DNA of 64,000 nucleotides from an uncultured Clostridia bacterium. Lineage in GTDB: Bacteria > Bacillota > Clostridia > Lachnospirales > CAG-274. The stretch is taken from positions 26,200 to 90,199 of the forward strand of contig CANRIS010000007.1 of assembly GCA_947630725.1 (NCBI GenBank), written 5' to 3'. Position numbers and translations under genes: made by a program. The number at the start of each line of letters is the position of its first letter. Position 1 is the stretch's first letter. The notes under the pieces are model-generated. The model worked only from the letters and a program-made list of their open reading frames with translations, did no database searches and was not told the origin of the DNA. Below, piece after piece: positions 11,354 through 39,605 of this stretch.

Positions 11354-11573
11354 GCTTTGTCAGATATTTGTCGTATATTTGTCGGATATTTTTAACTGTA
11401 CAGACAGATACTTTTGACAGATATTTTTGGCAGATAACTTTGATGGATATTTGTGACAGTCCTGCCGACGTAGCCGATGTATGGCCGGTATGGATATGTT
11501 ACAGAAGCCTGCCTTTGTTTGTATGACTGACAGGCTGACGGTATCATATTATAAATACATAATAAATATAAAT

Positions 11574-11631
11574 AAAAAAGCAGTATTCGCATATCTGGGG
11601 AGATCCTTAACGGCTGAAATACTGCTTTTTT
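11574..11631. terminator. Bidirectional terminator, copy 1
   Basis: AAAAAAGCAGTATT...AATACTGCTTTTTT. Confidence 0.75.
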
Positions 11632-11854
11632 GATTAATCGAAGAGGTTTAAAGGTTTGGTTTGTGTTTTTCCATGGTCTTAGGCTTGTCGGCTTAGTTCT
11701 GTACAGACAGATATTTTTGACAGATAACTTTGATGGATATTTGTGACAGTCCTGCCGATGTATTGCCGGTATGGATATGTCACAGAAGCCTGCCTTTGTT
11801 TGTATGACTGACAGGCTGATGGTATCATATTATAAATACATAATAAATATAAAT

Positions 11855-11912
11855 AAAAAAGCAGTATTCGCATATCTGAGGAGATCCTCAACAGCTGAAA
11901 TACTGCTTTTTT
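11855..11912. terminator. Bidirectional terminator, copy 2 (metE-proximal)
   Basis: AAAAAAGCAGTATT...AATACTGCTTTTTT with inner TGAGGA-GA-TCCTCA. Confidence 0.8.
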
Positions 11913-11973
11913 GATTAATCGAAGAGGTTTAAAGGTTTGATTTGTGTTTTTCTATGGTCTTAGGCTTGTCGGC

Positions 11974-30682: not shown

Positions 30683-31987
30683 GTGGTGGCAGACTATAAC
30701 GGAGGAAGATCCGGAGAAAGAAAAACCGCAGCGCAGAAAATAGCTGAACAAAGAAGAAGGAAAAATGCTCTTGAGGAGGTACAGGGGCCAAGGCTTGGCA
30801 ACAGAGGTACAAACGCATACAATACACCCAGACTTTCATCAAGGAACGACATACAGGACAGGCAGGAAAGACCAGACAGACCGGACAGACAGAGAACGGC
30901 GGCTCCTGCTCCGAGAAAAAGCGCAAACAGGTCTGTGAGCAGAAAAAACGACAGAAGCATACAACTGTTTCCGGGTACGGGAGCCTCAAGGGTATATACA
31001 AAGCCCTCCGGCAAGGCTCTGTTTGGTAAGCGCTCACGTCTCGGAGGCTCCGGCGGAAAAAAGCTGATCGCTATAGGAGCTGTAGTTGCTGCGGTGCTTG
31101 TGATGCTGTTTATGCTTACAAAGAAAAACGCCGTAGAGGTTTTTGTTGACGGAAATTCTGTGGGTGTCGTTATGGACAAGAACTACGATGCCGAAACCAT
31201 TAAAACAACCTGTACAGCAAGGCTTGTTTCGGATCACGACACAAATGTTGAGATCACAAGCAATATAGAGACCAAGAAGGTACACGCAAGAAAAAGCGAT
31301 AAAAATGTTTCGACTGCCGACTATCTTCTTAAGGAGATAAACGAAGTTCTTAAGTACAATGTGGAGGCTACCGCTATTGTTGTCAACGGCAGCGAAATGG
31401 CGGTCGTTTCAAACAATGAGGCGGCGCAGACCGTTGTTGACAGGATACGCTCCGAGCATAAGCTCTCTTATATAGAGGACACGAGTACGATCGTGGAGGG
31501 ACCCGAAATAGAGGGATTGGAGTATGTGTCGAAGTTTGTGGACGGAACAGAAATTCTGAGTACGGATCAGGCATATGACAAGCTGAACGGAACCAGGCAG
31601 GAGACGCTTACATATACGGTTGCGGCCGGCGACAGCATAGGAAAGATCGCAGCAAGATATGGGCTTGGGGTATCCGAGCTTATGGCATCGAACCCCGATA
31701 TTGCCGATGCTACGAGAATATCTGTGGGAGACGAAATAAAGATAGACGCAACAGTACCTATACTGAACATAAAGGTCGTAACTCAAACGGTTGACAGAAG
31801 CAGCGGTACGGCTGTTATTGAAAAGACCACATATATAAACGGCAATATATCGGACACAACATCTCTTGACAGCAGCAAGGCTGACAACGCAGATGACGAA
31901 AACGACGGCGATGAGGGCGCAGACAACACTGACAACACCGATGATGGGGAAAGTTCGGAAAATTCTGGTAATTCCGAGAGTGAATAA
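30683..31987 (+). CDS. Membrane-anchored LysM-domain protein with acidic C-terminal tail
   Basis: TM KLIAIGAVVAAVLVMLFML; LysM ETLTYTVAAGDSIGKIAARYGLGVSELMASNPDIADATRISVGDEIKI. Confidence 0.8.
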   Translation: MVADYNGGRSGERKTAAQKIAEQRRRKNALEEVQGPRLGNRGTNAYNTPRLSSRNDIQDRQERPDRPDRQRTAAPAPRKSANRSVSRKNDRSIQLFPGTGASRVYTKPSGKALFGKRSRLGGSGGKKLIAIGAVVAAVLVMLFMLTKKNAVEVFVDGNSVGVVMDKNYDAETIKTTCTARLVSDHDTNVEITSNIETKKVHARKSDKNVSTADYLLKEINEVLKYNVEATAIVVNGSEMAVVSNNEAAQTVVDRIRSEHKLSYIEDTSTIVEGPEIEGLEYVSKFVDGTEILSTDQAYDKLNGTRQETLTYTVAAGDSIGKIAARYGLGVSELMASNPDIADATRISVGDEIKIDATVPILNIKVVTQTVDRSSGTAVIEKTTYINGNISDTTSLDSSKADNADDENDGDEGADNTDNTDDGESSENSGNSESE

Positions 31988-32035
31988 ATAAAAATAAGCG
32001 CCGATGGTTCGCTGTAAAAAATTTTTTAAAAATGT

Positions 32036-32219
32036 TCTGCTCACGACTTTTCCGCAAGGAGTACCTTCGGTACCCCTGCGTTAAAGTCGGAGCCGTAAAA
32101 GGGCGGCAACAGCCGAGCCGATTTCATCGGCTCGGCTGTTGCGGTCAATGCCTGCGGCCGCAGGCCGCAGGCATTGACGCGGCATCTTTGCCCCGTTAGG
32201 GGCAAAGATGCGCCGCCCT
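32036..32219. repeat. Multi-arm palindromic element H1 (cloverleaf-like)
   Basis: AGGAGTACC-ttc-GGTACCCCT arm, then AGGGCGGC closing stem enclosing CAACAGCCGAGCCGAT-TTC-ATCGGCTCGGCTGTTG, GTCAATGCCTGCGG-CCGCAGG-CCGCAGGCATTGAC and GCATCTTTGCCCC-GTTA-GGGGCAAAGATGC, closed by GCCGCCCT. Confidence 0.9.
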
Positions 32220-32467
32220 ATGATACCAGGATACGAAAAACGCACTTGGTTATATACAGCAGTAAAAAAGCTTTTGGAAAAGGGAAAATACCACGGCAGA
32301 GTTGTTGTCGGAGGCGCTTTCCTTTTTGCTTTGCGCAAAAAAAAACAACAATATATGAAAAAATAATTAAATCTGAAAAATAATGTGGATTTTCTTAGGA
32401 TTTTAAGCTATACTATAAACTGTATTCCATAAGTCATATACAATTCGGGCTTAAGATGGTCTGAATT

Positions 32468-32612
32468 TAACCGACAAGTAAGTCCCCCGCCTCTTTAGGC
32501 GGTGGGTACTTACTGTTGTATTCGGTGGGAGATGCAAGCTCCCATCGAATACAAAGGCTTCATCAGAAGCCGTCGGGTAGAGATACGTAGCGTAAGCGGA
32601 GTGCGAATATCA
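32468..32612. mobile_element. IS200/IS605-type end remnant (solo end or PATE-like), no transposase
   Basis: TTTAAC adjacent to AGTAAGTCCCCCGCC-tcttta-GGCGGTGGGTACTTACT and TATTCGGTGGGAG-atgcaag-CTCCCATCGAATA hairpins, typical of IS605-family ends. Confidence 0.6.
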
Positions 32613-32624
32613 TTGACTATAGTG

Positions 32625-32815
32625 TCTGCTCACGCCTTTCCCGCAAGGAGTACCTTCGGTACTCCTGCGGCAAAAGCGGAGCCGTAGGAGGGGGAGGGCG
32701 GCGCGCCGAGCCGATGAAATCGGCTCGGCCGCTGCGGTCAGGGTCTGCGGCCGCAGGCCGCAGACCCTGACGCGGCATCTTTGCCCCGCAGGGGCAAAGA
32801 TGCGCCGCCCCCCCC
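32625..32815. repeat. Multi-arm palindromic element H2, homologous to H1
   Basis: AGGAGTACC-TTC-GGTACTCCT arm, then GGGCGGCGC...GCGCCGCCC closing stem with arms GCCGAGCCGAT-GAA-ATCGGCTCGGC, GTCAGGGTCTGCGG-CCGCAGG-CCGCAGACCCTGAC, GCATCTTTGCCCC-GCA-GGGGCAAAGATGC. Confidence 0.92.
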
Positions 32816-32909
32816 TATTGAGGCAAGCCGACACGGAAAGTATAAAAGTTGCACATACACAATATACAGTAAAGAAGTTAAAAGTTGATTTCGGAGGAAA
32901 CGTAAATCT

Positions 32910-34304
32910 ATGAGAACTATGAGAAAAAAATTATTGTTGGCAGCGGCTGTCCTTGCGGTGGTGTTTACGCAGCTATTTGCCATGAATACATACTGTTCAA
33001 ATGAGATAATAAGAGTAGGGCTTGTGACAAGTTTCGGAGACATATCCTCGGTCAGCATCGGAGATCAGGCTGTTATGACAGGATATTCAAGTGGAAACAA
33101 CTTTTATGAGATTGCCTATCTGGATATGAGCGGCGGCGGAAGTCTTTCAAAATCAGCCTCGTATTATATAGCTGTTGACGGAAGTTATGGCGACTATGCC
33201 TCTGCTAAGGCAAGAGCGTTAAGGCTTGTTGCAGACGGATACAACTCCGTCCCTGCATTCAAGGGAAACGGCGTATGGAATGTCTATATAGGACCGTATG
33301 AAAGCAGCGAAAGGGCGGCAGCCGCCGAAAACAACTATCCGGGCAATGCTGTCACATGCGCTCCATCGGCATATACTATGTACCTTTCGGGGGCGAACGA
33401 CAAAATGATATATGACTTTTCGGGTGGTAATTTTGCCATAACGGGAGACAGCGCAGTCAGCATCGGGGGCAGCTCATACAGAGGCTATATTGAATTCTGC
33501 AATACTGGCGGAGGGTTTACCGCAGTGAATGTTATTTCTCTTGAAACTTATCTGTGCAGCGTTGTTCCATCGGAAATGCCTTCGGGCTGGGGAACCGAGG
33601 CGCTGAAGGCTCAGGCCGTGGCTGCAAGGACATATACCGTGAACAAGCTTAAGGCAGGCGGAGAGACAGGCTATTATGACATATGCGACAATGCCCATTG
33701 TCAGATGTATACGGGAACGAAAAGTGAGGCGGCATCTGCTACTGCTGCAGTCGGCGCTACGGCAGGAGAGGTGGCAGTGTATAACGGCGAGCTTATCAAT
33801 GCGGTATACTGTTCCTCTGTAGGCGGAGTAAGCGATGATAACGAGAATGTCTGGGGCGAGGATATTCCGTATCTCAAAAGCGTAAAGGAAATTGACGGCA
33901 CAGAGGTTGTCGAGTGGAGCAGAAGCTACAGCTTTAAGACCATTTCGGACATTCTTTCGGCAAGAGGCGTGAATATAGGAAAGCTTGTATACATAAACGT
34001 ACAAAGAAGCGATAACGGAAGGGTATATTCTATGACCTTTTCGGGAGAGAGCGGAAGCTATACCGTAGAAAAAGAGGACGTAAGGACGTTTTTTTCGGGA
34101 ACGAGCGAGGGTACTCTCCAAAGCAGAGTTTTTGACATAAGCTTTGAATACGGAAACGAATTTGTGCTTCACATTGACGGAAAAGGCTGGGGACACGGAC
34201 TTGGACTTAGTCAGTACGGCGCAAAGGCTATGTCGGAGGCAGGCTATACATATGACGAAATACTTAAGCATTATTATAAGGGAATTGAAATAACGGGATA
34301 TTGA
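32910..34304 (+). CDS. SpoIID/LytB-domain secreted protein
   Basis: NVISLETYLCSVVPSEMPSGWGTEALKAQAVAARTYTV; GWGHGLGLSQYGAKAMSEAGYTYDEILKHYYKGIEI. Confidence 0.93.
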   Translation: MRTMRKKLLLAAAVLAVVFTQLFAMNTYCSNEIIRVGLVTSFGDISSVSIGDQAVMTGYSSGNNFYEIAYLDMSGGGSLSKSASYYIAVDGSYGDYASAKARALRLVADGYNSVPAFKGNGVWNVYIGPYESSERAAAAENNYPGNAVTCAPSAYTMYLSGANDKMIYDFSGGNFAITGDSAVSIGGSSYRGYIEFCNTGGGFTAVNVISLETYLCSVVPSEMPSGWGTEALKAQAVAARTYTVNKLKAGGETGYYDICDNAHCQMYTGTKSEAASATAAVGATAGEVAVYNGELINAVYCSSVGGVSDDNENVWGEDIPYLKSVKEIDGTEVVEWSRSYSFKTISDILSARGVNIGKLVYINVQRSDNGRVYSMTFSGESGSYTVEKEDVRTFFSGTSEGTLQSRVFDISFEYGNEFVLHIDGKGWGHGLGLSQYGAKAMSEAGYTYDEILKHYYKGIEITGY

Positions 34305-39443: not shown

Positions 39444-39605
39444 GGCGGCAGAGAACGGTCGGGGCGGCGGATTTTGCCTTCGCCATGCTCTTTTCCTGCG
39501 GAAAAAGCATAGGCGAAGATGCAAAATCCCGTGGGGGCGTCTTTGCGCAGCAAAGACGCCCCCACGCCCGGCTTACGCCGGGCGCCGCCCCGAGACGCCT
39601 GCCGC
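39444..39605. repeat. Multi-arm palindromic element H3 (same architecture as H1/H2)
   Basis: GCGGCAG...CTGCCGC outer and TCGGGGCGGC...GCCGCCCCGA inner closing stem enclosing GGATTTTGC...GCAAAATCC, GTGGGGGCGTCTTTG-cgcag-CAAAGACGCCCCCAC, GCCCGGC-ttac-GCCGGGC. Confidence 0.85.

Follow-up and report, generated by a model that had tools for sequence, protein, structure and literature searches.

A dispersed family of cloverleaf-like palindromic elements in one lineage of uncultured Clostridia, probably a folded-DNA repeat

Two palindromic elements, H1 and H2, lie near one another in the 64,000-nucleotide stretch of DNA analyzed here (the window), and each combines a head hairpin with a three-armed cloverleaf whose stems differ between the two copies at positions that nevertheless stay paired. 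Such a pattern could mark an RNA selected for its fold, a piece of DNA that folds and moves, or some other strong hairpin, and the original prediction allowed for either a structured ncRNA or a mobile unit of folded single-stranded DNA. The question is therefore what kind of element H1 and H2 represent, and which process keeps their arms paired.

Two elements and the family to which they belong

H1 occupies positions 32035..32225 of the window on the plus strand, as delimited by a covariance model and by the conservation of the ends across copies, and consists of a left tail (TTCT), the head hairpin P1, a linker, the cloverleaf, and a right tail that is degenerate in this copy. P1 (GCTC...GTACC-TTC-GGTAC...GAGC; 32039..32093) is evident from the sequence and has a z-score of -4.1 in single-strand DNA folding. 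Sequence and DNA folding likewise define the closing stem of the cloverleaf (5′ side GGGCGGC, 32101..32107; 3′ side GCCGCCC, 32212..32218) and the three arms that it encloses: arm a, a perfect hairpin with loop TTC (32108..32140), arm b, a perfect 16-bp hairpin with loop GCA (32144..32178), and arm c, a perfect 13-bp hairpin with loop GTTA (32182..32211). H2, also on the plus strand (32624..32817, by covariance model match), shares this layout of P1, short linker, and GGGCGGC/GCCGCCC stem around three arms, with P1 at 32628..32682 (z-score -4.0), the two sides of the stem at 32696..32702 and 32804..32810, arm b at 32737..32771, and arm c, with loop GCA, at 32775..32803. From P1 to the closing stem, the elements span 32039-32218 and 32628-32810. 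When the window was searched with the covariance model, the matches were 32030-32230 (E=1e-30) for H1 and 32619-32822 (E=7e-29) for H2; the cloverleaf z-scores are -14.5 and -13.0, and both folds are far beyond chance.

The shared stem, the three hairpins, and the head hairpin described in the original prediction are all present in the sequence where it placed them, and its account of the arms holds as well. Arm b reads GTCAATGCCTGCGG/CCGCAGGCATTGAC in H1 and GTCAGGGTCTGCGG/CCGCAGACCCTGAC in H2, with three changes on each side, every one of them paired. In arm a, the 25-nt core of H2 (loop GAA, 32705..32729) matches the H1 core at 32112-32136 exactly when reverse-complemented; given that every arm is a perfect palindrome, the difference amounts to the inversion of a 3-nt loop from TTC to GAA. 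What the prediction called H3 is probably a related cloverleaf, in which GGGGCGGC/GCCGCCCC encloses three arms, at 39459..39592 on the minus strand, with no recognizable P1 head, which lies between two minus-strand genes (model E=1.9e-5 in the window; DNA fold z-score -13.1).

The surroundings of H1 and H2 contain other repeats. In the interval 31987-32910, H1, a ~155-bp repeat, and H2 are flanked by a LysM-domain gene and a SpoIID-like gene, the matches of which are on separate contigs in those congeners where both were found, so that the locus is possibly a rearrangement point. The intervening repeat (32465-32620) occurs more than 20 times in this genome, in several cases at 95-99% identity, and as fragments of ~80-90% identity in congeners, chiefly G001 and G002; judged by its sequence it is probably a young non-autonomous element, and to the eye its hairpin (TAAGTCCCCCGCC...GGCGGTGGGTACTTA) looks like the ends of IS200/IS605 elements. 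Elsewhere in the window (11569-11636 and 11850-11917), two identical pairs of 19-nt inverted repeats, each with a 30-nt spacer, lie 281 bp apart.

BLAST with H1 found further copies in the same genome (G000), and those extracted share its architecture. A covariance model built from 16 copies, with H1 and H2 left out, recovers H1 at E=5e-29 and H2 at E=3e-27 and places the family at ~37 distinct sites in the genome, forward and reverse matches on one palindrome being counted as one. The element is ~160-190 bp long, and P1 and the three arms are found in all well-aligned copies, although the sequence itself varies widely. Some copies must nonetheless be recent, since one pair differs at just 4 core columns and another at 8. 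Two copies, L073 (G000:C30:8992) and L079 (G000:C6:55572), keep the cloverleaf arms under different heads (GGCACGCACATTTGG and a TCATCAAAATGC hairpin, respectively), which suggests an exchange of modules.

The distribution of the family is narrow. BLAST of 60 relatives, which include eight congeners, found no copy, and the covariance model detected weak cousins in two of those eight congeners (G005 and G008) and none in the other six. Under strict filters, the same model gave nothing convincing across 388 genomes of the class, where one match, in G076, was set aside as a single weak GC-rich hairpin that looks unrelated. No match was obtained in the phage and plasmid collections searched, and the literature searched, which covers part of what has been published, held no description of the family. 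H1 and H2 are thus copies of a dispersed, non-coding family that has multiplied in this lineage.

Pairing in the arms and in the head hairpin

Covariation that respects pairing, as anticipated by the original prediction, is pronounced in this family; together with the further copies, it means that the prediction passes its own test of refutation. In 32 distinct rows, 96.9% of cells pair, two-sided change occurs in 59 of 65 pairs, and the covariation score is 0.435, compared with 0.120 in shuffles and ≤0.08 in slid structures; this alignment was fitted to the covariance model and so leans towards structure, but a model-free hairpin search of each copy also returned nearly perfect arms. The head is built differently. 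P1 is an imperfect hairpin with an unpaired, bulged purine after GCTC, and a P1 position that is G-C in 16 of the 32 copies is unpaired in 13, whereas the three cloverleaf arms are perfect hairpins almost free of mismatches. Among close copies (≤25 differences), changes in the arms were two-sided in 54 cases and one-sided in 5, as against 22 and 29 in P1 (p=3e-8, with copy pairs that are not independent).

The kind of pairing is equally distinctive. The 1185 arm cells comprise 1166 Watson-Crick pairs, 6 G-T, 5 A-C, and 8 others, whereas the RNase P RNA in the same window has 7 G-U among 93 pairs (82 Watson-Crick). In P1, on the strand that the model reads as RNA, A-C cells (30) outnumber G-U cells (12). 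The covariation of the arms is overwhelming but DNA-like, and wobble pairs are not tolerated on either strand to the degree that a selected RNA would lead one to expect.

Two-sided change can also arise without selection. According to work on rRNA genes (PMC8794818), template switching in the course of DNA synthesis is able to generate perfect hairpins, to preserve them, and to turn their loops around. Because it can change both sides of a stem and invert a loop in a single event, covariation is not by itself proof of selection on structure, and while the compensatory changes that led the original prediction to invoke such selection are borne out, the conclusion drawn from them does not follow from covariation alone. 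In the second closest pair of copies, 6 of the 8 differences fall in unpaired columns and correspond to two inverted loops.

Loop orientation separates the head from the arms as well. Of the 62 loops in arms b and c, 50 are of the C-G-closed GNA type when read on one or other strand, a share far above the random expectation of 1 in 8, although the copies are related and any p-value is only a guide. C-G-closed GNA loops form very stable DNA mini-hairpins. The two orientations are found at 23:0 in P1, 19:8 in arm b, and 10:13 in arm c (P1 vs. arms b and c together, p=7e-5, for loops that are not independent observations). The exception is one truncated pair on contig C5, without the usual P1 tip, in which the head loops CGTG and CACG are inverted. 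The simplest reading of these sequences is that P1 may be read on one strand while the arms need only fold. In one TnpA-REP system, reverse-complementing the REP loop severely affected cleavage and compromised binding (PMC8266576), while in the E. coli REP system the role of the loop is structural only; the fixed loop of P1 may therefore be likened to the loop requirement of REPs as a parallel, not as a rule.

We consider it probable that H1 and H2 are non-autonomous, REP- or MITE-like elements of folded DNA, in which a transposase acting in trans reads P1 and the ends on one particular strand, and template switching maintains the perfect arms; mobility, transposase, and template switching are all things that we infer, whereas the family with its ends, its dispersal and lineage restriction, the DNA-like covariation, and the contrast between a fixed P1 loop and flipping arm loops are shown directly by the sequences. 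In such an element, the ends and the imperfect P1 would be the fixed parts, recognized on one folded strand, and the three arms of the cloverleaf body would have to pair but would need no particular sequence. Template switching in DNA synthesis would then rewrite both sides of a stem at once and invert arm loops. Selection for the DNA fold itself may act together with template switching.

Ends, placement and competing explanations

Copies aligned at their ends begin with KTCT directly before GCTC and finish with RWAWSTT after GCCGCCC, and conservation halts sharply at both ends, the flanks beyond being close to random. Terminal inverted repeats are absent, as the left KTCTGCTC and the right CCCRWAWSTT are not inverted repeats of one another, and no target duplication was seen by eye in the flanks. 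None of the 27 copies examined overlaps a gene as predicted by a simple codon-usage script. Where genes lie on both sides (n=24), 7 copies sit between convergent, 13 between co-oriented (7 and 6 by orientation), and 4 between divergent genes; their orientation relative to the genes is random, and many are close to gene ends.

One copy, at C2:29308, can be compared with relatives, as the same two genes are adjacent in five congeners. The spacer is ~350-390 bp long here vs. ~70-190 bp between aligned parts in those five, and the element is placed after the stop codon and before a hairpin that resembles a terminator and has a T run. To judge from these spacer lengths, the enlargement fits an insertion. 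The exact target at this site is unreadable because the relatives are too diverged, and for the same reason the congener comparison yielded no exact empty site; no transposition event was seen.

These observations bear on several other explanations. A folded DNA, as a cruciform or a single-strand hairpin, might be selected as a chromosomal site, for instance for gyrase, a nucleoid protein, or chromosome organization, with no present mobility. The DNA-like perfect pairing, the intergenic placement, and the stable GNA-type loops on either strand in arms b and c would all suit such a role, and two-sided changes in the arms could equally reflect strong selection on folded DNA. However, copying and insertion account better for the absence from most close relatives, the enlarged spacer, the sharp ends, and the clustered copies of young appearance, and we regard a purely chromosomal site as unlikely.

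Alternatively, the copies could be fossils of an ordinary DDE-type MITE or of an extinct element, spread in the past by some other means, recombination and retro-copying among them, and today subject to mutation alone. The wide variation among copies agrees with this, as does the fact that no autonomous partner with matching ends was found, but the ends lack terminal inverted repeats and show no visible target duplication, and the two nearly identical pairs point to recent copies. A fossil origin is thus distinctly improbable.

We think it very unlikely that the family is a structured ncRNA or a cis-acting RNA, such as a 3′ stabilizer of mRNAs, under selection for an RNA fold, despite very strong covariation, stable predicted folds, and the many copies close to gene ends. 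The near-absence of wobble pairs and of strand bias in the arms, the excess of A-C over G-U in P1, and the random orientation relative to neighboring genes all count against it, as does the restriction to one lineage. H1 and H2 have no Rfam match at gathering score, and a permissive search gave only matches far below threshold. The ncRNA half of the original prediction is accordingly not supported, while its other half, the folded mobile DNA, is favored by dispersal, sharp ends, intergenic placement, random orientation, lineage restriction, and the one enlarged spacer. That the copies are transcription terminators, alike only as strong hairpins, is highly improbable even with such hairpins and the seven convergent sites among the 24 scored, as no T run follows H1 or H2, a separate terminator-like hairpin lies beyond the element at C2:29308, and a head with three arms is unnecessary for termination. 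Two further candidates were set aside by inspection only: integron attC sites, as there is no cassette array, and retron RNA, as no reverse transcriptase was recognized among the nearby ORFs listed.

If the elements are moved in trans, as the preferred reading of a folded mobile DNA would have it, an HUH single-strand transposase is the most likely candidate, though a tentative one. For strand-specific cleavage by a Y1 enzyme, the fixed loop of P1 would be the only sign, and an indirect one. Y1 transposase genes are present in exactly three of nine congeners, G000, G005, and G008, the same three that carry the elements or their cousins. These form one clade in the tree, so the co-occurrence counts as a single event and lends no independent support, and the link between Y1 genes and elements is suggestive only. 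No autonomous element with matching ends was found around the Y1 genes: none of the four Y1 loci in G000 is flanked by the element within the stretches examined (RAYT groups pooled), and GTCTGCTC, ATAACTT, GGCGGAGCCG, and the tail of the cousins are absent from the Y1 loci examined, which have other ends. Several of the IS200-like Y1 genes of this clade (L024, L025, L201, L203, and L202) contain in-frame stop codons.

The repeats in G005 and G008 (loci L173-L200) combine a head hairpin with a single long hairpin as the body and carry the fixed tail CCGCAGTCNNGTCGG. They are likely cousins of the G000 family, judging by the model matches, by one copy with the left end GTCTGCTCA, and by one with the right end CTATAACTT. 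Exact CCGCAGTCNNGTCGG tails number 16 in G005 and 16 in G008, with none in which the pattern is read backwards; they do not always accompany hairpins, a few being alone and two near contig ends. At L194 (G005:C44:13457) and L183 (G008:C5:92385), the tail stands alone in AT-rich DNA with no adjoining hairpin, either as a remnant or as a pre-insertion site. The body stems are mostly 33-46 bp long, 785 of their 793 pairs are Watson-Crick, and their 5′ arms contain little T (6.7%) and much G (46%). Comparison of the stems from different copies gave a median score of 15, barely above the 13 of shuffled sequence. Because the cousin copies share the tail while their perfect body stems are nearly unrelated, one might envisage a mobile element of this one clade whose fixed ends are inherited while its long perfect hairpins are continually rewritten or remade by fold-back DNA synthesis, so that structure would be inherited without sequence, a reading that we find rather unlikely.

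Comparison with known systems

The closest known counterparts are the REP, REPIN, and BIME sequences with their TnpA-REP (RAYT) proteins of the IS200/IS605 superfamily, which likewise comprise many short, intergenic, lineage-specific palindromic units with no autonomous genes inside (PMC8266576; PMC3733652; PMC3116915). A strand-specific hairpin, with a loop whose orientation was critical in one REP case (PMC8266576), is a further likeness. However, a REP is a single hairpin of 20-50 nt with a GTAG or CGTC tetranucleotide at its foot (PMC8266576; PMC3733652), whereas the element described here measures 160-190 nt and has four hairpins, three of them perfect arms free in sequence; neither tetranucleotide was seen beside P1, where KTCT stands, or in the right tail RWAWSTT, and no RAYT with matching ends was found in the stretches examined. 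By its size, its four hairpins, and the missing tag, the element is not a REP, although by analogy it may work like one. With MITEs and the non-autonomous derivatives of IS200/IS605 it has in common its lack of autonomy, defined ends, dispersal, and subterminal hairpins; it differs from MITEs in its ends, without inverted repeats or a visible target duplication, and from IS200/IS605 derivatives in that its ends are unlike those of the resident IS200-like elements. Were the preferred reading correct, the family would be a counterpart of REP and MITE elements in a lineage where we found none described, and of unusual design, since it would join a head read by protein to a folded body whose sequence is free.

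Rickettsia palindromic elements and mitochondrial double-hairpin elements are dispersed hairpin units without a known transposase. The cousins in G005 and G008 likewise have a two-hairpin layout, though the hosts differ and the likeness is one of description. To our knowledge, neither group includes a three-arm cloverleaf with conserved ends.

Template-switch mutations in hairpins (PMC8794818) resemble the present family in their simultaneous two-sided stem changes and loop inversions, but they represent a mutation process on rRNA genes and not an element, and their extension to a repeat family is one that we infer. For RNA discovery, the comparison carries a warning, as a process acting on DNA can produce overwhelming covariation with no RNA function behind it. 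If the extension is right, the dozens of copies in each genome would document template switching in nature, since both sides of their stems change together.
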